Source of the DNA: Nitrospirota bacterium
GTDB taxonomy: Bacteria > Nitrospirota > Thermodesulfovibrionia > UBA6902
Length of the DNA: 47,139 nt
Direction: 5' to 3'
NCBI GenBank assembly: GCA_016213945.1
Contig: JACQZF010000075.1
Span: 1-47,139, forward strand
The notes beneath the pieces were generated by a model. That model was not told the DNA's origin. It saw nothing but the letters and a program-made list of their open reading frames with translations, and searched no databases. The translations under genes were made by a program, and so were the position numbers. Positions 4,221 through 38,690 of the stretch are shown here, piece by piece. Positions within the stretch are counted from its first letter, which is position 1. Every line of letters begins with the position of its first letter.

Positions 4221-5288
4221 ATGTCTGACCTTAACGAACTGAGAAAAAAGATTGACGAGATCGACCAGCGCATCCTTGAACTGCTGAACAAGAGGGCGGA
4301 GACCGCCATTGAGATCGGCAAGGCGAAGCAGGACAAACATCTGAGCATACATTCGCCTGAGAGAGAAAGGGAGATACTCAAGAGACTCACGGAGAAGAAT
4401 CCCGGCCCGTTTCCCTCTAATGTCCTCAAGCTGCTCTATGAGGAAATACTTTCAGCATCGCTTTCATTGCAGCAGCCATTGAAGGTTGCGTATCTCGGTC
4501 CTTCGGCGACTTTCACCCACCTGGCGGCGAGCAGGAAGTTCGGCTCCTCGGCGGAGTATCTGCCCGTAAGCAACATAAGGTCGGTTTTCGAGGCCGTCTC
4601 AAGAGGCAAGGCCCAGTACGGCGTGGTGCCCATCGAAAACTCGACGGAAGGGGTGATCAATTACACGCTCGACATGTTCGTGGATTCCGATCTGAAAATA
4701 GCCTTTGAGATAATGCTTGAGATAAGACATAATCTCCTGTCAAAGACCGGGAAAAAATCCGACGTAAAGAAAATTTACTCGCATCCCCCTGCAACGGCCC
4801 AGTGCAAGGTATGGCTTGAAAGGAATTTTCCGGGTGTTCCAATTCTGGAAGAAATGAGCACTGCCGCGGCGGCCAAACGCGTCAGTAAAGACCCGTCAGC
4901 AGCCGCTGTTGCAAGCGAGCTCGCGGCCTCGGTCTACAATCTCCGGTTTATTGAAAAGGGCATTGAGGACTATAAAAATAATTTCACCCGCTTCCTTGTT
5001 ATCGCAAAAGAGTCTTTGCCCAGAACAGGCAACGACAAGACATCCGTTATGCTGTCCATAAAAGACAGGGCAGGCGCGCTTTATTCTATACTGAGGCCTT
5101 TTGCAAGACACAAGATCAGCCTTTCCAAGATCGAATCAAGGCCCTCGAGGAGAAAGGCGTGGGAATATATTTTCTTTGTTGACATGGAAGGGCATATAGA
5201 AGATAAAGGAGTAAAAAAAGCAATTGATGAAGTGAAGAAGGAATGCCTCTTTCTGAAAGTGTTAGGCTCCTACCCGTCTGCGGAATAG
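4221..5288 (+). CDS. pheA: Bifunctional chorismate mutase / prephenate dehydratase (P-protein)
   Basis: This 355-residue P-protein converts chorismate to prephenate and then phenylpyruvate, committing carbon to phenylalanine. The N-terminal AroQ chorismate mutase (about 1-80) shows LRKKIDEIDQRILELLNKRA. The prephenate dehydratase domain (about 88-265) begins KVAYLGPSATFTHLAA and contains the catalytic-region TRF motif in NNFTRFLVI. The C-terminal ACT domain (about 275-355) has the ESRP motif (SKIESRPSRR) that binds phenylalanine for feedback inhibition. Length is normal for the fusion. It heads the run pheA-hisC-tyrA-aroA. The ATG at 4221 has no Shine-Dalgarno sequence. Confidence 0.97.
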   Translation: MSDLNELRKKIDEIDQRILELLNKRAETAIEIGKAKQDKHLSIHSPEREREILKRLTEKNPGPFPSNVLKLLYEEILSASLSLQQPLKVAYLGPSATFTHLAASRKFGSSAEYLPVSNIRSVFEAVSRGKAQYGVVPIENSTEGVINYTLDMFVDSDLKIAFEIMLEIRHNLLSKTGKKSDVKKIYSHPPATAQCKVWLERNFPGVPILEEMSTAAAAKRVSKDPSAAAVASELAASVYNLRFIEKGIEDYKNNFTRFLVIAKESLPRTGNDKTSVMLSIKDRAGALYSILRPFARHKISLSKIESRPSRRKAWEYIFFVDMEGHIEDKGVKKAIDEVKKECLFLKVLGSYPSAE

Positions 5289-5329
5289 CTGACAGCTTAC
5301 AGCTATTAGCTATTAGCTTTTTTTAAATT

Positions 5330-6415
5330 ATGATACACACACCTGAACATATAAAAAGCCTCAAGCCGTATGTCCCCGGCAAGCCTATGGAAGAGCTTGA
5401 AAGGGAGCTTGGGATCACAGGCGCGATCAAGCTTGCGTCCAATGAAAATCCTCTTGGCCCGTCGCCCCTTGCGCTTAAGGCCCTGCGGGAAGGCATGAAA
5501 GGGTTGAACAGATATCCGGACGGGAGCTGTTATTATCTCAGGCAGGCATTGTCGGAGAAATTAAAGGTCAGCCCCGAAGAGATATTATTCGGCAACGGCT
5601 CCAATGAAATAATCGAACTGGCAGTCAGGACCTTTCTCAATCCCGGAGATGAAGCGATAATGGCGCATCCGTCATTTGTCGTATACTCGACAATCGTGCA
5701 GGCCGCACAAGGCAGGAATATAATTGTCCCGCTTAAAGACCAGCGGCATGACCTTCCTGAAATGGCGTCGAAGATAACGGAGAAGACGAAGATCGTTTTT
5801 ATCGCAAACCCGAACAATCCCACCGGCACAATCAATACGAAAGAAGAGATGGATGCATTTATGGAGAAAGTCCCTGACGGCGTGCTTGTCGTTGTTGACG
5901 AGGCATATTGTGAATATGTCTCTTCACCGGATTACGCGGACAGCATGAAATATTTCAGGGCGAACAGGGACATTCTTGTCCTGAGGACATTTTCTAAAAT
6001 ATACGGCCTTGCGGGGCTGAGGATCGGATACGGGATCGCGAACCCAGCGATCATTACCGGGATGAACAAGGTGCGTCAGCCTTTTAATATTAACTCTCTG
6101 GCGCAGAAGGCCGCCCTCGAAGCGCTGAAAGACGAGGGACATATTGCAAAGACAAGGCGGACGAATGAAAGAGGGAGAAAATATCTCTATAAAGAATTTA
6201 AGGCGCTGAAGCTTGATTATGTGCCTACAGAGGCGAATTTTATTTATGTGCCTTTGAAAGATAATTCATCCGCTCAGTTGTACAACGACCTTCTCAAAGA
6301 AGGAGTTATTGTCAGGCCGATGGGGCCTGACGCAGTGCGTATCACGATAGGGCTCCCTGAGGAGAACAAGAGACTGATAGAGGCATTAAGGAAGATCCAG
6401 AGTTATGAATTATGA
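5330..6415 (+). CDS. hisC: Histidinol-phosphate / aromatic aminotransferase (HisC family, PLP)
   Basis: This 361-residue class I/II aminotransferase belongs to the HisC family. It shows KLASNENPLGPSP near the N-terminus, NPNNPTGT for cofactor/substrate contacts, DEAYCEY, and the PLP-lysine segment TFSKIYGLAGLRIGYG. By family it transaminates histidinol phosphate. Its place between pheA and tyrA, with no other his gene in view, suggests that it serves as the aromatic aminotransferase for phenylpyruvate/hydroxyphenylpyruvate, or is bifunctional. The start has no RBS; the 41-bp gap to pheA is a run of AGCT/TATTAGC simple repeats. Its stop overlaps the tyrA start (ATGA). Confidence 0.9.
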   Translation: MIHTPEHIKSLKPYVPGKPMEELERELGITGAIKLASNENPLGPSPLALKALREGMKGLNRYPDGSCYYLRQALSEKLKVSPEEILFGNGSNEIIELAVRTFLNPGDEAIMAHPSFVVYSTIVQAAQGRNIIVPLKDQRHDLPEMASKITEKTKIVFIANPNNPTGTINTKEEMDAFMEKVPDGVLVVVDEAYCEYVSSPDYADSMKYFRANRDILVLRTFSKIYGLAGLRIGYGIANPAIITGMNKVRQPFNINSLAQKAALEALKDEGHIAKTRRTNERGRKYLYKEFKALKLDYVPTEANFIYVPLKDNSSAQLYNDLLKEGVIVRPMGPDAVRITIGLPEENKRLIEALRKIQSYEL

Positions 6416-7284
6416 AATCAGGCATGAAGATAAACTTTAAACACATTGCGATAATCGGGGTTGGACTCATCGGCGGCTCCTTTGCCATGGCCCTTAAGAA
6501 GCAGGGATTCAAGGGCAGGATAACCGGCCTCGGCAGAAAGAAAGAGAACTTAATAAAGGCGAAGAAGCTTGGTGTCATAGACGATTATTCCACGGATTAC
6601 GCGGAGGGAATTAAAGACGCTGACCTGGTCCTGCTTGCGGTACCCGTGGGCCAATTTGAGAGAATTGTAAAAAGTATCAGGGGCAGCATGAAAAAGGGCG
6701 CGATAGTTACGGACGTTGGAAGCGTAAAGGCGCAGATCGTGAAAAAGATCGGGCCGCTGATGCCGGAAGGCGTTCACTTTGTCGGGGCACATCCCATTGC
6801 GGGCAAGGAATGTTCAGGCATAAGTTGCGCCTCGGCAGACCTGTTTAAAAATGCGAGATGCATTATCACGCCCGGTCTGAAGACAAACAAAGCGGCGCTG
6901 AATAAAATCGTCAGGCTCTGGAAGAATGTCGGCAGCAGGACGCTTTTCATGTCTCCTGAAGAACATGACCTTATCTTTGCAGCGGTAAGCCATCTGCCTC
7001 ATGTGGCCGCGTACAGTCTGGTCAACAGCATAATGAAATTAGATGACAACATACTTCATCACGGGGGAAAAGGCTTGCGTGATATGACCAGGATCGCCTT
7101 GAGCCCTTCAGAGCTTTGGCGTGACATCTGCGCTTACAATAAAAAGAATATTCTGAAGACACTCAAGAAGCTCTCGTCTTCCATAGCACACATCACAAAG
7201 CTTATTGAGACATCGGACTGGACGGCCCTTGAGAAGGAATTCAGGAAGGCCAAAGAGGCGAGACAAATCCTTGAGTCAGATTAG
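6412..7284 (+). CDS. tyrA: Prephenate dehydrogenase
   Basis: This NAD(P)-dependent prephenate (or arogenate) dehydrogenase makes 4-hydroxyphenylpyruvate for tyrosine. The 290 residues start with a Rossmann motif (IAIIGVGLIGGSFA). Further on come VTDVGSVK, the substrate-binding GAHPIAGKE segment and AAVSHLPHVAAYSL, all typical of TyrA. It has no ACT or chorismate mutase extension. The ATG overlaps the hisC stop in an ATGA; an internal ATG at 6424 (MKINFKH) is an alternative start. The gene overlaps aroA if aroA begins at the TTG at 7271. Confidence 0.95.
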   Translation: MKSGMKINFKHIAIIGVGLIGGSFAMALKKQGFKGRITGLGRKKENLIKAKKLGVIDDYSTDYAEGIKDADLVLLAVPVGQFERIVKSIRGSMKKGAIVTDVGSVKAQIVKKIGPLMPEGVHFVGAHPIAGKECSGISCASADLFKNARCIITPGLKTNKAALNKIVRLWKNVGSRTLFMSPEEHDLIFAAVSHLPHVAAYSLVNSIMKLDDNILHHGGKGLRDMTRIALSPSELWRDICAYNKKNILKTLKKLSSSIAHITKLIETSDWTALEKEFRKAKEARQILESD

Positions 7285-28367: not shown

Positions 28368-28670
28368 ATGGAAAAACTCATCGGTATAGGATTTTACCGA
28401 AAGGAGCAATGGCCCCTTTTGCTTGAAAGCGCCGATGACATCGATGCGATGGTAAAAGTGTACGACGAGTGGATGAAAGGGATCCAGAAACTTATCGAAA
28501 ATATGAGGATGGAAGGGATCGAGCCCGTTACTGTGGATATAGATATTAATGAACTATTAGAATATTGCAGGGGACATAATCTGAAAAACAACGGTGAGAC
28601 GCGATCACAGTTTGTAGCGGAATTATTGAGAAGCGGGAGAAGTGAAAAAGCCGGGCATTGTTCTTTATAA
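28368..28670 (+). CDS. Conserved-looking small protein, unknown
   Basis: This 100-residue acidic, helical protein (LIGIGFYRKEQWPLLLESADD, YDEWMKGIQKLIENMRMEGIEP) has a central VDIDINELLEYC segment. No signal peptide, membrane segment or known motif is seen. It starts directly after the stop of the Cys-rich gene. Its last codons lie in the loop of a GCCGGGC/GCCCGGC hairpin (28650-28680), which may attenuate transcription into the STAS gene. Confidence 0.65.
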   Translation: MEKLIGIGFYRKEQWPLLLESADDIDAMVKVYDEWMKGIQKLIENMRMEGIEPVTVDIDINELLEYCRGHNLKNNGETRSQFVAELLRSGRSEKAGHCSL

Positions 28671-29315: not shown

Positions 29316-29990
29316 ATGAAACTTAAACTGACGATTGATATTTTAATTAAAGAAGCAAAAGTATTTTGCGAGATTGAATCAACATTTGGTAACCCCGATT
29401 TATTCGGGATAACTGACGGCAAGGCTGTCGGCACTTTTATAGAACACAAGTTTCACAATTATCTTTTATTAAAATATAAATATCCGGTTGGTTCATCCGC
29501 AAATGGCATTGACATGCCTTCTGAAGATATAAACACAGACATTAAAGTTACCTCTATTAAACAGCCTCAATCATCATGCCCCTTCAAAAATGCAAGGCAA
29601 AAGATATATGGACTCGGCTACAATCTACTAATATTTGTTTATGAGAAGAATGATGACCCGAAAAAGATAGTAGCAAGATTAAATTTTGTAAGCTGTTCGT
29701 TCATCCATAAAAACCGCACTGCTGATTATCAACTAACACGCACTATCCGTCAAATGCTTGAAAATGACGCGAATGCAGAAGATATAGTTGCGTATCTGGC
29801 AGACCGTAATTTACCTGCTGACGAAATTACCATGAATAAGTTGGCACAAGAAATATTAGCGAATCCGCCGGAGCAAGGTTACTTGACCATATCAAACGCG
29901 CTGCAATGGCGGTTGCAATATGGAAGGGTCGTAGATTTAAATGAGGAAGTTCAGGGTATAGTCAAAATAGTCAGCAAAGCAGGGAGTTGA
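29316..29990 (+). CDS. Type II restriction endonuclease (PD-(D/E)XK), partner of the next gene
   Basis: This 224-residue protein has a plausible PD-(D/E)XK core: helix Glu43 in FIEHKFHNYLLLKY, then Gly-Ile-Asp66 and Asp75-Ile-Lys77 in GIDMPSEDINTDIKVTS, followed by hydrophobic strands (YNLLIFVYEK). It overlaps the next gene's leader: its TGA lies within the RBS region of the N6-adenine methylase, a typical R-M pair. I cannot name the recognition site. Base composition is more AT-rich than the housekeeping genes. It opens the 9.4-kb run of restriction-modification genes. Confidence 0.75.
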   Translation: MKLKLTIDILIKEAKVFCEIESTFGNPDLFGITDGKAVGTFIEHKFHNYLLLKYKYPVGSSANGIDMPSEDINTDIKVTSIKQPQSSCPFKNARQKIYGLGYNLLIFVYEKNDDPKKIVARLNFVSCSFIHKNRTADYQLTRTIRQMLENDANAEDIVAYLADRNLPADEITMNKLAQEILANPPEQGYLTISNALQWRLQYGRVVDLNEEVQGIVKIVSKAGS

Positions 29991-29995
29991 TAATA

Positions 29996-31825
29996 ATGCA
30001 ATCTGCAATAAGACATTTACAGTCTGATACTGTCCAATATCTTAAAGCAAGGTTGGGCGATATATCGGCTTTCGATATTGCCAATGATTTATTAGTCGCT
30101 ATTTCCGGCATCGATATGTTCTTCAGAAATCAAGAGGATTTTCTTGCAACGAAGGAACTCCTTAAGCCGTGCTTTGCAGTTTCTGAGGAGACTGATAGAC
30201 GTGAATATGGAGATTTTCAGACCCCGTCCAAATTGGCAGACTCAATATGTTCGCATCTGACTGCGGAAAATATATCGCCGGATGTAATAATTGAACCCAC
30301 TTTCGGCAAAGGCTCGTTCCTGCTTTCAGCCGTCAAGTTGTTTGGCGAAGTAAAAGAAATCTATGGGGTCGAAATCCACGAGCCGTATTATTGGCAGACT
30401 AAATTCAGCATCCTTGAATATTTTATAAACAACCGAAAACAGAACAAGCCAAAGATATTTCTCTACCACAACAATGTTTTTCAATTTGATTTTGGAACGA
30501 TTGAGAAATCCATCGGCAGGCATAATGTTTTGATATTAGGCAATCCGCCGTGGGTGACCAATTCCGAATTGGGAAGCCTGGATGCGCACAATCTTCCCGG
30601 CAAAAGCAATTTCAAAGCGCTTAATGGACTTGATGCTATTACCGGCAAGGGGAATTTTGACATCTGTGAATATATCATCCTGATGATGATCAAGTTGTTT
30701 TCAAAGTATAACGGACATATGGCGATGCTGACAAAGAATGCTGTGATTAAAAACCTGATCTACGATTTACCGAAGATGAACTATAACATTCACAATTCAT
30801 CAGCCCTGAGAATTAATGCCAAAGAACACTTTGACGCTTCGGTAGAGGCCTCGTTATTCAAATGCAGCTTTGGCAGGGATGATAACCAATCCGCTTTTTT
30901 GTGCAAGGTCTCAATGCTTGCCTCTCCAAATGTTGTTGAAAATACATTCGGGTGGGTCAGGGACAAATTTGTTTCCGATATGACTTCTTACGGAACACAT
31001 AAAAAATATGACGGCGTTTCCCAATACATATGGAGGCAGGGAATAAAACACGACTGCTCAAATATCATGGAGCTTGACTCGCTGTCGGGTAATAAATATC
31101 GCAACGGCTTAGGGCAGGAGATGAATATTGAAAATGACATGATATACGGGCTGATAAAAAGTTCCGATTTGCATTCTCCGGTAATAACGCAGCATCGAAA
31201 ACATGTAATCGTAACGCAGAGAATGATCGGCGAAAGCACAGCGCATATAGAATATCAGTCACCGAAACTTTATCAATACTTGCTACAGAACAAACATCAC
31301 TTTGACCAGAGGAAATCAAGTATTTATAAAAACAAACCGTTGTTTTCAATATTCGGAGTGGGAGAATATTCTTTTAAACCGTATAAAGTTGCGATCTCCG
31401 GTCTTTATAAACGCTCATCCTTTTCTCTGGTATTACCTGTGAACGGCAAGCCTCTTATGCTGGATGATACTTGTTATCATTTAGGTTTCGATAACATAAC
31501 CGACGCTATTTTTGTATGGGCTGTTTTGAACAGCGTACATGTTCAGGAACTGCTTGCTTCAATAACTTTTCTGGATGCCAAGCGACCGTATACGAAAGAT
31601 GTTTTAATGAGACTCGATATCAATCAGGTCGCTTGTGACATGACGTATGAAGAAATCGTTGCTCAGATTGGGTCATTAGACAAGACAATGATAGTTGATG
31701 TTAATGAAGACAAATGGATTATCTTTCGTGAACAGTTTACTAATGTGAAAGACAAAGGAGGAGATCAGCCGTCTTTGTTTGCATGTCAGATTTTAATTCC
31801 CTCGCCCCTTGCGGGAGAGGGTTAG
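29996..31825 (+). CDS. N6-adenine DNA methyltransferase (Eco57I/TaqI-like)
   Basis: This 609-residue gamma-class methylase has YGDFQTP (residues 71-77), SAM motif I EPTFGKGSF (100-108), motif II IYGVEIHEP and the catalytic motif IV NPPW (183-186). The large C-terminal part serves as target recognition domain. It protects the host at the site cut by the preceding nuclease. ATG 29996 is chosen (GGGAG 8 nt upstream) over a TTG at 29987. The last residues, SPLAGEG, come from a palindromic repeat starting at 31798, so the original C-terminus has been replaced or extended. Confidence 0.88.
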   Translation: MQSAIRHLQSDTVQYLKARLGDISAFDIANDLLVAISGIDMFFRNQEDFLATKELLKPCFAVSEETDRREYGDFQTPSKLADSICSHLTAENISPDVIIEPTFGKGSFLLSAVKLFGEVKEIYGVEIHEPYYWQTKFSILEYFINNRKQNKPKIFLYHNNVFQFDFGTIEKSIGRHNVLILGNPPWVTNSELGSLDAHNLPGKSNFKALNGLDAITGKGNFDICEYIILMMIKLFSKYNGHMAMLTKNAVIKNLIYDLPKMNYNIHNSSALRINAKEHFDASVEASLFKCSFGRDDNQSAFLCKVSMLASPNVVENTFGWVRDKFVSDMTSYGTHKKYDGVSQYIWRQGIKHDCSNIMELDSLSGNKYRNGLGQEMNIENDMIYGLIKSSDLHSPVITQHRKHVIVTQRMIGESTAHIEYQSPKLYQYLLQNKHHFDQRKSSIYKNKPLFSIFGVGEYSFKPYKVAISGLYKRSSFSLVLPVNGKPLMLDDTCYHLGFDNITDAIFVWAVLNSVHVQELLASITFLDAKRPYTKDVLMRLDINQVACDMTYEEIVAQIGSLDKTMIVDVNEDKWIIFREQFTNVKDKGGDQPSLFACQILIPSPLAGEG

Positions 31826-33585: not shown

Positions 33586-35052
33586 ATGCCTAACCGCCGT
33601 TCATTCAAAACAGACGAAAGTTTTTTAGAGAAGCTTGCCATCGGAGCTATAGGTACTCGTGCGGTCTTTGCTGATTTGTCGAGACAGGGACATAAGCCTA
33701 TTGAGCTTGAACGCGGCTCGATGAATTACAAGATATGGAAGAACATCAAAATCAAACGGCTGCGTGTGCCGGATATTCTCTGCCTGAATTGCGCAACACG
33801 AGTTGAAGCCCGTGCAAAGACCAAACTGGAAATCAGCATGTCTCACTCTCTTGCAGATCCTGAGCGAGGTTGGGACAAGGGCCTGACAGATCATGATGTT
33901 GTCGCTTTTTCGATATGCAGGAAAGTCGGAGGAGGACCAATAGATTGGCAAGCCGATTCTCTGATTCAGTATGTTTCAGTTAGAGAATTAAGAAAGACTT
34001 TTGATGAAAAACGAGTAGTCATCGAAAAACCAAAGGGAGCAGGAGAGGGATTCGAGCTTCGAGTTACATGGCCAAGTGCAATTGCCAGCAGTGCTGGTAT
34101 CATTAGCGAAGTAACACCTTCACGATTGAAGTTTAAGCGAAAGTCAGACGAGCGAACGATTTCACTAAGTCTTTCAAAGAAGGGTATCCCACTTCAACCG
34201 TTGGTTAAAACTGGTGATACGATAATCACGGGTCAGATAATTGCCTCTGTCATTCCCGTTTTTTCATCTTTTATTTGCGGAATCGATTCTACTGCAGAAA
34301 TATTTCTTGCAATGCTTGCATCCCCATCGGTTGCCGACCGCTATACCGCTGCAAAGGCTCTTTCTAATTTTGAAAACAGTTCAATCTCTGAGATTTTGAA
34401 AGAGCGTATGAATGACGCACGAGAGCATATTTATGTCAGGTTGGAATCTGCTGCCGGACTCGCGCGCTTGAAACAGAGCAGCGGTATGGAATTCATTACG
34501 CAGACTCTTCATGGTGAATATTTGGAACACAGACTTGAAGGAATTATCATTTTGGGAGAGATTCAGTTGCCGGAATCGCAAAAGATTCTGACTGCTTCTC
34601 TTTTAGATAAAGAGCAGCATCCGGAAATTCGTGCAGGCGCGGCGTGGGCATTAGGTGAGTTAAAACAGCCTGACAGTGTAGATGCGCTTATTCAGACATT
34701 TTCAGAACTTGCAGAGCCTATAAGAATTGAAGCGGTACGGGCACTCCGTAAGATATCAGAGATTGAGACAGGGAATATTATTTCCAAGTTGCCTTCTTCT
34801 AAAGAAGATCAGCGCGCAGGAATTGCATGGTCTATAAGTAGATCAGGTAATGTCGTGGTTGATGATCTTTCCCGAATTATGGTGGACAATGATGCACGCC
34901 GATGGGTAGCTTATATCCTGGGAATGCAGAATCAGGAAGTATATTTAGACAAAATAGAGTCGCTGCGTAATTTCGATCCAGAAGTTTACTTTGCAGTAAC
35001 AGTCTTATGGAAGATAATAGGCAGTTGGATTTATAACCTTGAGGAGTACTGA
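33586..35052 (+). CDS. HEAT-repeat protein with possible N-terminal nuclease domain, R-M partner
   Basis: In this 488-residue protein, residues about 1-225 form a separate domain with RVPDILCLNC (Pro62-Asp63), RVEARAKTKLEISMSHS (Glu74, Lys78/Lys80) and DHDVVAFSICRK. This is an order compatible with a PD-(D/E)XK fold, though spacing is not textbook. Residues about 240-470 are HEAT/PBS-lyase-type helical repeats (YTAAKALSNF, IYVRLESAAGLARL, EIRAGAAWALGELKQPDSVDALI, IRIEAVRALRKI). It ends 2 bp before a PvuII-type methylase and so occupies the restriction enzyme's position. It could be the nuclease, a target-binding accessory protein, or both. Confidence 0.65.
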   Translation: MPNRRSFKTDESFLEKLAIGAIGTRAVFADLSRQGHKPIELERGSMNYKIWKNIKIKRLRVPDILCLNCATRVEARAKTKLEISMSHSLADPERGWDKGLTDHDVVAFSICRKVGGGPIDWQADSLIQYVSVRELRKTFDEKRVVIEKPKGAGEGFELRVTWPSAIASSAGIISEVTPSRLKFKRKSDERTISLSLSKKGIPLQPLVKTGDTIITGQIIASVIPVFSSFICGIDSTAEIFLAMLASPSVADRYTAAKALSNFENSSISEILKERMNDAREHIYVRLESAAGLARLKQSSGMEFITQTLHGEYLEHRLEGIIILGEIQLPESQKILTASLLDKEQHPEIRAGAAWALGELKQPDSVDALIQTFSELAEPIRIEAVRALRKISEIETGNIISKLPSSKEDQRAGIAWSISRSGNVVVDDLSRIMVDNDARRWVAYILGMQNQEVYLDKIESLRNFDPEVYFAVTVLWKIIGSWIYNLEEY

Positions 35053-35054
35053 GA

Positions 35055-36098
35055 ATGTTTATACCACAGAAAGCGTTATATAAAACACAAATGGGAGAAG
35101 CTTATGTTGGCGATTCATTAGATTTGCTAACAAAACTCCCTGCTGAATCTGTTGATTTGGTAATAACTTCTCCGCCATTTGCGCTTCAACGAGAAAAAGA
35201 ATATGGAAATAAAAAGCAGGATGATTATGTAGACTGGCTTCTGCAATTTGCAGAGCCGATTAAGCGTGTACTGAAACAGACCGGAAGTTTTGTGCTGGAT
35301 TTAGGCGGAGCGTATGTCAGCGGTAGACCCGTTAGGTCGCTTTATAATTACAGGGTTTTATTGCGCCTGTGCGATGAATATGGGTTTCATTTGGCAGAAG
35401 AGTTTTTTTGGCATAATCCTGCCAAGTTGCCGTCACCTATTGAATGGGTAAACAAGAGGAAAATTCGCGTTAAGGATTCTGTAAACACAGTCTGGTGGCT
35501 TTCAAAAACTGACTTCCCAAAAGCTGATGTGCGGAATGTTCTTGTGCCTTATTCAGAAAGGATGAAGAAATTATTAGAAGACAGCGAGCGATTTTATCAT
35601 CCCAAGAAGCGTCCTTCTGGTCATGATATAAGCAGTAAGTTTGCATCAAACAACGGAGGAGCGATACCCCCGAACCTCTTGCAAATTTCCAATACGGAAA
35701 GCAATTCACAATACCTACGTTACTGCGTATCTGTGGATATTAAAGGGCATCCCGCAAGATTTCCTGAGAAGCTCCCGGCTTTTTTTATTCAATTCCTTAC
35801 CGAACCCGGAGATGTTGTTCTTGATATCTTTGCCGGGTCAAATACAACTGGGGCAGCGGCTGAGAATGCTGGTAGACACTGGATCGCCTTTGAAAAAGAC
35901 AAAAACTATTTATCGGCCTCAGCGTTTCGGTTTTTGGACGAGATGTCTCATGATGAGCTTACTAAGTTTTGGAGCGATGCTTTGTCTTCTGAACAAACAA
36001 TAGAGATTTTGAAAAGACAAAAAGAGATGGTTTTAATGGAAGATAAAGTAAATTATAACGCGCGAAATAAGGGACGGCGGAAGGGTGTGAGTGTATGA
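35055..36098 (+). CDS. N4-cytosine DNA methyltransferase, M.PvuII-like
   Basis: This 347-residue beta-class methylase carries catalytic motif IV TSPPF (38-42) near the N-terminus and SAM motif I as VLDIFAGSNTTG near the C-terminus. From memory, long stretches (SPPFALQREKEYGN, LPSPIEWVNKRKIRVKD, SGHDISSKF, PPNLLQISNTESNS, GHPARFPEKLP) closely parallel M.PvuII, which modifies CAGCTG, so this site is a reasonable prediction. The preceding HEAT protein, not a small PvuII-type nuclease, is its neighbour. It starts 2 bp after that gene. Confidence 0.88.
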   Translation: MFIPQKALYKTQMGEAYVGDSLDLLTKLPAESVDLVITSPPFALQREKEYGNKKQDDYVDWLLQFAEPIKRVLKQTGSFVLDLGGAYVSGRPVRSLYNYRVLLRLCDEYGFHLAEEFFWHNPAKLPSPIEWVNKRKIRVKDSVNTVWWLSKTDFPKADVRNVLVPYSERMKKLLEDSERFYHPKKRPSGHDISSKFASNNGGAIPPNLLQISNTESNSQYLRYCVSVDIKGHPARFPEKLPAFFIQFLTEPGDVVLDIFAGSNTTGAAAENAGRHWIAFEKDKNYLSASAFRFLDEMSHDELTKFWSDALSSEQTIEILKRQKEMVLMEDKVNYNARNKGRRKGVSV

Positions 36099-36775: not shown

Positions 36776-38101
36776 ATGCATCCTAACACCACCATAATCA
36801 TCGGCGATAGCCGGAGGATGGACGAACTTAAAGATGAGTCTGTTCATCTCGTTATTACTTCTCCGCCATATTGGCAGTTGAAGGACTATGGCAACGGAAG
36901 TCAGATAGGGTTTAATGATTCATACGAAGACTACATCAATAACCTCAATCTTGTCTGGAAGGAATGCTACAGGGTTTTGCATAAAGGTTGCCGGCTGTGC
37001 GTCAACATCGGAGACCAGTTTGCCCGGTCTGTTTATTACGGCAGGTACAAGATCATTCCTATCAGAGAAGAGATAATCAAGTTCTGTGAGACGATCGGGT
37101 TTGATTACATGGGGGCAATTATCTGGCAGAAGGTTACTACTTGCAACACGACGGGCGGGGCTACGGTTATGGGTTCTTTTCCATATCCAAGAAACGGAAT
37201 AATCAAACTCGATTATGAATTTATCCTGATATTCAAGAAGCTCGGTGACTCGCCGAAAGTCAGCCGGGATGTCAAAGAAATATCCAAACTTACCACAAAA
37301 GAATGGAATGAATATTTTTACGGACACTGGAATTTCTCCGGGGAAAAGCAGGACAAGCATCTTGCCATGTTCCCGGAAGAACTGCCGAAGCGATTGATAA
37401 AGATGTTCAGCTTTGTCGGCGATACCGTGCTTGATCCATTCTTAGGAAGCGGGACAACCTGTCTTGCCGCAAAAAGATTAGAAAGACAATCTGTTGGTTA
37501 TGAAATAAATAAAGACTTTTTACCTGTAATAAAAGAAAAGTTGAAAAGTCCCACTTTGAAAAAGGGAGATGCAGGGGGGGGGTTAGATAAAAACCCGAAG
37601 GACATGGAGGTCATTATTCAGCAGAAGAAGCCGGTAGACTTCAAAAAAGAGATCCTTAATCTGCCGTATATTTTTAAAGACCCTGTAAGGTTCGACAAGA
37701 AAGTTGATCCGAAGAAATTAAAATTCGGTTCGAAGATAGATAAGGGCTCCTCTCAGCATAGAGAGACTTATTATTCCGTCAAAGAAATAGTAAGTCCTGA
37801 GATTGTCATCCTGAATAATGATTTAAAAGTCAGGTTGCTTGGCATTGCAGAAAGAAAAGAAATAAACGGGAAGGCGATCCAGTTCTTAAAAGAAAAACTG
37901 AATGGCGAAAAAGTGTTTCTCAAGTTTGATACCACAAAATATGACAGTAAAGGCAATCTCTTGTGTTACCTCTATCTGAAGAACAAAACATTCATCAATG
38001 CTCATTTGATAAAAAATAAATTGGCACAAGTTGATTCTTCTTTGAACTTCAAATATAGAAATAAATTTATTGCCATTCAAGAAAATGGAGGGGTCATTTA
38101 G
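36776..38101 (+). CDS. DNA methyltransferase fused to a degenerate SNase-like domain, partner of an MjaI-type nuclease
   Basis: This 441-residue protein carries a beta-class methylase in residues 1-255: motif IV TSPPY (28-32) and SAM motif I TVLDPFLGSGTTC (217-229), either N4-C or N6-A specificity. A palindromic-repeat-like linker (about 258-271, TLKKGDAGGGLD) follows. Residues about 334-425 resemble a staphylococcal-nuclease OB fold (VRLLGI, FLKEKLNGEKVFLKFD, DSKGNLLCYLYLKNKTFINAHLI). Compared with SNase, Arg35 is kept (Arg353), but Asp40, Glu43 and Arg87 are Ala358, Lys361 and Asn394, so it should not cut. It pairs with the CTAG-type nuclease 1 bp downstream, so CTAG modification is likely. 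Confidence 0.82.
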   Translation: MHPNTTIIIGDSRRMDELKDESVHLVITSPPYWQLKDYGNGSQIGFNDSYEDYINNLNLVWKECYRVLHKGCRLCVNIGDQFARSVYYGRYKIIPIREEIIKFCETIGFDYMGAIIWQKVTTCNTTGGATVMGSFPYPRNGIIKLDYEFILIFKKLGDSPKVSRDVKEISKLTTKEWNEYFYGHWNFSGEKQDKHLAMFPEELPKRLIKMFSFVGDTVLDPFLGSGTTCLAAKRLERQSVGYEINKDFLPVIKEKLKSPTLKKGDAGGGLDKNPKDMEVIIQQKKPVDFKKEILNLPYIFKDPVRFDKKVDPKKLKFGSKIDKGSSQHRETYYSVKEIVSPEIVILNNDLKVRLLGIAERKEINGKAIQFLKEKLNGEKVFLKFDTTKYDSKGNLLCYLYLKNKTFINAHLIKNKLAQVDSSLNFKYRNKFIAIQENGGVI

Positions 38102-38102
38102 A

Positions 38103-38690
38103 ATGAAGATAAAACTCACGAACGAAGATATCAGAAAGTCTTTGGAGATTTCTTCGCCATCATTTCCTAAATATGCATCTTTAATAATTAACCTTGCTAA
38201 CAGATTTTCACAAGGGACGAGACCCAAAGTTGTTGGGCAATTAACAGATTTAATACAGGAATTTTCAGGAAAAACTTTTGAAGAATGGGAGCAATGGTAT
38301 TTACAGAAATATCCAGATGCCATAAAAACGGCAAAAGAAAAAATCCTGTCAATGCTTGAGAATCTTAAGGATGCAATGCACAAGATTGATGAAAATATGG
38401 TCAATGAATGGGTGAAAGACCTTGTTATCGTTCAGACATTTATCGGTCTTCAATTTCAGGAAGCAATTTTGAGGAAGGCTGCTGAGATTAAAGGTGTTGA
38501 TTTCAGACTATCTGAAAGTTCAGATGAATCGAAGGGAATTGATGGATATATTGGAGACGTTCCTGTTTCGATAAAACCAGAGACTTATAAAACACAGGAA
38601 TATTTAACTGAGAATATAAACGTAAAAATTATCTTTTATAAAAAAACTGACAACGGGATTGAGGTAGATTATGGCGAGGTCATTGACTAG
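38103..38690 (+). CDS. MjaI-type restriction endonuclease (probable CTAG specificity)
   Basis: The 195 residues match, by recognition, the MjaI restriction-endonuclease family, whose prototype cuts CTAG. Catalytic-looking residues are Glu120 (FQEAILRKAAEI), Asp147 (GIDGYIGD) and Ser156-Ile-Lys158 (VPVSIKPETYK), a PD-(D/E)XK arrangement with the acidic residue before the Lys replaced. The segment EWEQWYLQKYPDAIKTAKEKI is also family-like. It follows the methylase stop by 1 bp with GGAGGGG ~10 nt upstream of ATG 38103. CTAG is rare in many bacterial genomes, which would ease acquisition of this system. Confidence 0.85.
   Translation: MKIKLTNEDIRKSLEISSPSFPKYASLIINLANRFSQGTRPKVVGQLTDLIQEFSGKTFEEWEQWYLQKYPDAIKTAKEKILSMLENLKDAMHKIDENMVNEWVKDLVIVQTFIGLQFQEAILRKAAEIKGVDFRLSESSDESKGIDGYIGDVPVSIKPETYKTQEYLTENINVKIIFYKKTDNGIEVDYGEVID

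Follow-up and report, generated by a model that had tools for sequence, protein, structure and literature searches.

Gene pair and genomic setting

A HEAT-repeat gene and a DNA methylase gene lie 2 nt apart in the same orientation, the HEAT gene first, within the window (the entire 47,139-nt stretch of Nitrospirota DNA analyzed here; Table 1). The methylase matches M.PvuII (1boo_A) across residues 5 to 313 (E = 1.4e-135), is 62% identical over 310 residues to the annotated methylase of Proteus vulgaris plasmid pPvu1, and carries a DIFAGS motif in addition to its SPPF motif. Its neighbor is an open reading frame for a HEAT-repeat protein by curated profile, with Pfam matches above the gathering cut-offs to HEAT_2 (6.3e-18; 65.3 bits against a cut-off of 27.7) and HEAT_PBS (5.1e-11). 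Searches of NCBIfam, PADLOC, and PHROGs named no family for it beyond generic HEAT.

Table 1. Features of the HEAT-methylase pair (window coordinates).
Feature	Position	Strand	Basis
HEAT-repeat protein, 488 aa, proposed restriction endonuclease	33586..35052	+	ORF, ATG start
Predicted PD-(D/E)XK-like nuclease domain, residues 10-150	33613..34035	+	Fold matches; most conserved part
P62-D63, candidate catalytic PD	33769..33774	+	Invariant in 12 aligned members, three subfamilies
E74-x-R76-x-K78, candidate catalytic half-motif, predicted strand 71-78	33805..33819	+	Invariant in 12 members
Barrel-sandwich-hybrid domain, RNA polymerase beta-like, residues 163-225	34072..34260	+	Structural alignment; weak RnfC_N match
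HEAT-repeat arm, residues 235-482	34288..35031	+	Pfam HEAT_2/HEAT_PBS; helical pairs in model; alpha-Rep matches
M.PvuII-type (N4-cytosine) DNA methylase, 347 aa	35055..36098	+	ORF, ATG start
SPPF catalytic motif, methylase residues 39-42	35169..35180	+	Sequence and alignment to M.PvuII

No R.PvuII-like nuclease accompanies the methylase. An HMM that recovered all six of the plasmid R.PvuII homologs on which it was tested found no such reading frame in the window or in any locus with a HEAT gene, and a PF09225 search of the window's whole genome returned no match. A preliminary description of this DNA had reported a methylase paralleling M.PvuII along nearly its full length, a 488-residue HEAT-repeat neighbor with PD and E-x-x-x-K elements in its N-terminal domain, and no R.PvuII of about 157 residues alongside. 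All of these observations hold.

The surrounding region is a restriction island. After the HEAT-methylase pair comes a second restriction-modification pair, consisting of a methylase whose C terminus carries a thermonuclease-like (SNase) domain (36776-38101) and an MjaI-family endonuclease (38070-38690; Pfam RE_MjaI, E = 3.8e-67). A third pair (29316-31825) combines an endonuclease matching NF052465 (E = 4.5e-102) with an Eco57I/Alw26I-type methylase. In a congener (locus L037), a methylase 85% identical to the SNase-domain methylase of the window (5662-6951, minus strand) is followed by a 227-aa protein (4995-5678, minus strand) that differs from the MjaI-family protein and has no Pfam match; by eye it is perhaps GIY-YIG-like. 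The two loci thus present another apparent nuclease swap. The 509-aa gene upstream of the HEAT gene was considered as a system component and dropped, because it is not conserved with the pair.

Domain organization and predicted structure of the HEAT protein

The HEAT protein, whose length is fixed at 488 aa in most family members, is predicted to have three parts. An AlphaFold model (11 sequences; pLDDT 88, pTM 0.83) places a barrel-sandwich-hybrid domain between the nuclease-like N terminus and the HEAT repeats; the preliminary description had recognized the two outer parts and missed the middle one. The barrel domain aligns with the RNA polymerase beta barrel-sandwich at a VIA Z of about 10 (rmsd 1.8 Å over 60-62 residues, 23-26% identity). 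The HEAT arm has a net charge of -9; that of the nuclease and barrel domains is positive.

The N-terminal domain probably belongs to the PD-(D/E)XK superfamily, judging from predicted structure. Because a fold search with the full-length protein was swamped by HEAT proteins, this domain was folded separately and compared by Foldseek and VIA. The models display the alpha/beta core of the superfamily, with a mixed four-stranded sheet and flanking helices; a fold check of residues 1-225 had been proposed at the outset. Most Foldseek matches were to Holliday junction resolvases of archaea, the best with E 0.036 and probability 0.89. VIA ranked I-Ssp6803I (Z 7.7), Hjc (7.5), SPARDA (7.2), MspI (6.6), DpnI (6.5), R.PvuII (6.2), and HinP1I (5.7) ahead of RecU, SwaI, and EcoRV, and PD-(D/E)XK nucleases account for nearly all of the best 48 rows (Z 4-7.7). 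Each single match is modest, every Z lying below the tool's comfort line of 8, so we assign the fold on the consistency of the list and not on any one score.

A PDB sequence search with a profile of the N-terminal domain gave no significant match, and comparison with a viral-structure library gave weak matches only, to uncharacterized or Hjc/RecU-like entries. The HEAT protein falls outside the R.PvuII family by Pfam (no PF09225 match), and profile-profile comparison of the N-terminal domain with R.PvuII detected no similarity. We therefore do not claim descent from R.PvuII.

Candidate active site

The putative catalytic residues show no variation in an alignment of 12 members, drawn from three subfamilies. 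Its invariant positions include E40, E42, P62, D63, E74, R76, K78, W96, D97, and D104, and D63, E74, R76, and K78 are retained down to about 37% identity. In this alignment, the invariance of the PD and E-x-x-x-K elements far exceeds chance. The spacing is PD-X10-E-x-R-x-K, with arginine (R76) at the position of the canonical E-x-K lysine and a lysine (K78) two residues on. Replacement or migration of this lysine is documented in the PD-(D/E)XK superfamily (PMC1189080). In the models, D63 falls just before a predicted strand (residues 64-66), and E74, R76, and K78 alternate along theirs, so that the three side chains would share one face. Every comparison, within subfamily 1 as well as between subfamilies, shows stronger conservation in the nuclease domain than in the barrel or HEAT part; across subfamilies, identity is 44% in the nuclease domain versus 22-24% in the arms.

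Distribution and linkage to DNA methylases

The HEAT-protein family is rare. A scan of genome contigs yielded ten further full or partial relatives and one remnant, from Nitrospirota, Verrucomicrobiota, a Methanophagales archaeon, and the omnitrophote Velamenicoccus. Viral contigs contributed two relatives, and genome searches added more. In the phylum of the window, 7 of 395 genomes carry a member; the Verrucomicrobiota search gave 1 of 288, and that of the phylum to which Velamenicoccus belongs gave 1 of 334. For the archaeal phylum that includes the Methanophagales genome, the count is 6 of 345, made up of three full-length genes, one short form, and two fragments. With the HEAT protein or a member of subfamily 2 as query, tblastn returned no match in phages or plasmids.

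A DNA methylase adjoins the HEAT gene in every locus with a readable flank, mere remnants aside. The preliminary description would have been contradicted by a lack of both conserved linkage and an N-terminal nuclease fold; the linkage is conserved, and the fold is predicted. Members of subfamily 1 have the HEAT gene immediately before an M.PvuII-type methylase gene, in tandem and 1-22 nt apart or overlapping. Methylases of this type abut the HEAT gene in Nitrospirota, Verrucomicrobiota, Omnitrophota, Methanophagales, and one viral contig. Subfamily 2 comprises two genomes of the window's phylum (L033 and L034) and the viral contig L041, whose protein is 44% identical to that of the window in the nuclease domain and 22% in the HEAT part. 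Here the HEAT gene is divergent from a methylase of about 600 aa, N6_N4-type with a zinc ribbon and unlike M.PvuII. The M.PvuII-type pairing first described is correct for the window, and a second subfamily with another methylase had been missed. A short archaeal form (L075, 319 aa) has the nuclease motifs and HEAT repeats but no barrel domain; its gene is tail-to-tail with that of an M.PvuII-type methylase. The link is therefore kept through differing gene order, orientation, and methylase class, which is the behavior expected of a restriction nuclease.

No gene other than the HEAT gene and the methylase is constant across loci. In two archaeal genomes (L076:374-2812 and L077:6503-8938), an AAA_23/SMC-like ATPase of about 811 aa sits directly upstream of the HEAT gene and is possibly an added component there. 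The two contigs classed as viral are IMGVR_UViG_3300031624_000224 (L032), with a HEAT gene and an M.PvuII-type methylase, and IMGVR_UViG_3300045950_000278 (L041), with a HEAT gene and the methylase of about 600 aa.

Methylase phylogeny and probable target site

HEAT-paired and R.PvuII-paired methylases form a single clade. In a tree of 24 methylases, this clade (support 100/100) is separate from methylases paired with HNH or Mrr proteins. Its members also have common target-region signatures, for example SPIEWVNKRKIR and an FY-containing segment before RPSGHDI. By sequence relationship and clade, the window methylase is thus of the M.PvuII type. Common ancestry and common signatures make CAGCTG the best guess for its site, which is probably the same as that of M.PvuII on sequence grounds.

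Plasmid relatives of the methylase adjoin R.PvuII homologs (PF09225; six plasmids, by HMM), MTaX1-HNH_2 proteins, or Mrr_cat proteins, and this variety of partners sets a precedent for nuclease swaps. At one locus (L004), a HEAT pair is accompanied in the vicinity by another M.PvuII-like methylase, whose neighbor is an Mrr_cat protein.

Avoidance of CAGCTG in the host was considered as a sign of restriction and proved uninformative. The host genome contains few sites, 164 in 3.5 Mb. Within the genus, densities are 30-47 per Mb in genomes with the system versus 10-72 in congeners without it, the latter being equally poor in sites.

Coevolution and decay of the gene pair

The HEAT gene and the methylase coevolve and are under purifying selection. 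Their pairwise distances are correlated (Mantel r 0.91, a value reached in 0 of 5,000 permutations), and the HEAT gene has a dN/dS of 0.08-0.10.

Decay, where seen, is one-sided. At L006 the HEAT gene has two stops, and at L038 it has lost about 360 codons in frame, including the whole nuclease domain; the methylase is intact at both. Both records are metagenome assemblies and that of L038 contains some N, so either break could be an assembly error. Among the loci found, none had an intact HEAT gene without a methylase. This asymmetry is expected if the HEAT protein acts as a toxic nuclease for which the methylase is the antidote.

The genome with the intact pair L003 also has a HEAT gene remnant (L012:8001-8200; the first 54 codons, in two frames) followed directly by another methylase. 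The same island holds relatives of two further window genes, the methylase at 29987 and the STAS-like gene at 28658.

Discussion

The HEAT-methylase pair is best explained as a two-gene restriction-modification system in which the HEAT protein is the cognate endonuclease in the place of R.PvuII, a reading to which we assign a probability of roughly 0.8. Since the pair recurs in bacteria, archaea, and viral contigs, it most likely represents an undescribed type of such system. Of the two options first put forward, a new HEAT-armed restriction enzyme and a methylase recruited to another scheme, the predicted PD-(D/E)XK-like core and the conserved methylase linkage favor the former. The methylase would protect its own site, probably CAGCTG, through N4-cytosine methylation. 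The HEAT protein would cut unmarked DNA with its N-terminal domain, using D63 and E74 together with R76/K78. The HEAT superhelix, joined in most members by the barrel-sandwich domain, may bind DNA or the methylase and so set which unmethylated sites are cut.

The arms are likely the seat of specificity, because the nuclease domain is always the better conserved part. They might read DNA themselves or dock to the methylase. DNA binding by HEAT-like repeats has a precedent in AlkD-type glycosylases (PMC8282808, PMC4433238); these enzymes are not nucleases and have no sequence-family match with the HEAT protein, so the precedent is an analogy only. Given the negative HEAT arm and the positive nuclease and barrel domains, DNA contact by the barrel with dimerization or docking by the HEAT arm is a real alternative within the same model. 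We infer cleavage, CAGCTG recognition, and DNA reading by the HEAT arm. More tentatively, the family could be a natural modular nuclease: the PD-(D/E)XK-like core would stay conserved and keep its chemistry, and a DNA-reading HEAT superhelix would direct it and be exchanged together with the methylase partner, whether M.PvuII-type or the unrelated one of about 600 aa.

In favor of a restriction enzyme, we count the linkage, a pairing that withstands rearrangement, the predicted fold, the invariant residues, coevolution, one-sided decay, the methylase clade, and the earlier nuclease swaps. Against it, we count the modest fold matches (Z < 8; Foldseek E 0.04 at best), the arginine in place of the E-x-K lysine, the lack of a profile match to R.PvuII, the HEAT arm charge of -9, and the absence of a CAGCTG avoidance signal. 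HEAT repeats are also more often protein-binding scaffolds than sequence-specific DNA readers.

The HEAT protein might instead be a partner of the methylase that does not cut (a scaffold, a specificity or targeting subunit, or a regulator) and whose nuclease fold has lost catalysis. The usual protein-binding role of HEAT repeats, the arginine at the E-x-K position, and the tight coevolution with the methylase would all suit such a role. We consider it unlikely, however, because D63, E74, R76, and K78 do not vary even between members only about 37% identical, and they lie in the most conserved part of the protein. Furthermore, M.PvuII works alone, and the methylase that resembles it stays intact where the HEAT gene is broken. 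An active nuclease of another kind is somewhat less likely still: an abortive-infection effector, or a structure- or modification-specific enzyme, held in check by methylation or the methylase. Holliday junction resolvases and the SPARDA effector nuclease are indeed among the closest folds, and HEAT arms occur in other defense proteins such as DSR2. Yet the pair has the normal layout of type II systems: two constant genes, one of them for a solitary type II methylase, with R.PvuII replaced beside the same methylase clade and no constant third gene.

The persistence of the methylase where the HEAT gene is not intact (L006 and L038) could also point to an epigenetic regulator, with the HEAT gene an unrelated neighbor or part of another scheme. 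Such an arrangement is very improbable. It is contradicted already by the linkage, since the two genes adjoin in every readable locus, in two domains of life and three gene arrangements, and the Mantel correlation of 0.91 stands against it as well.

Comparison with described systems places the methylase in a known group and sets the nuclease apart. The pair resembles the PvuII system (R.PvuII, C.PvuII, and M.PvuII of pPvu1) in methylase clade, target-region signatures, and presumably site. Its nuclease differs, having 488 aa with barrel and HEAT domains rather than the 157 aa of R.PvuII and neither a PF09225 match nor profile similarity. The controller gene is absent from the window's pair, and the genes are co-oriented with the nuclease first, whereas those of PvuII are divergent. 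With PD-(D/E)XK nucleases of the Hjc, DpnI, MspI, and SPARDA kind, the HEAT protein has in common its predicted core topology and a PD followed, after 10 residues, by an E on the next strand; it differs in having E-x-R-x-K for E-x-K and in the fused barrel and HEAT domains. The MTaX1-HNH_2 and Mrr_cat partners likewise stand as swapped nucleases beside a solitary methylase of the same family, although their nuclease domains are unrelated and their methylases form a separate clade. Type II systems are recognized by a solitary methylase genetically linked to an endonuclease, and the conserved HEAT-methylase adjacency has this form if, as we infer, the HEAT protein cuts. The best reading is therefore a new endonuclease family standing in for R.PvuII, beside a methylase of the known M.PvuII group and in a type II layout.

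Our literature search, with subscription papers and REBASE outside its scope, found no paper on a type II restriction enzyme with HEAT repeats, and a large review of type II enzymes uses the word HEAT once at most. Such pairs may already have putative entries in REBASE. Because of their fast divergence, most new type II restriction enzymes are recognized only through their methylase neighbor. For the family described here, recognition draws on its linkage, its predicted fold, and a set of invariant residues, and its members come from bacteria, archaea, and viral contigs. Its combination of a nuclease, an RNA polymerase-like barrel, and a HEAT arm is a build that the literature search did not find among described type II enzymes, and it raises the question of whether a HEAT superhelix can read DNA sequence for a nuclease. 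A single methylase clade that is served by R.PvuII in some genomes and, on our reading, by a HEAT enzyme in others would constitute a natural experiment.
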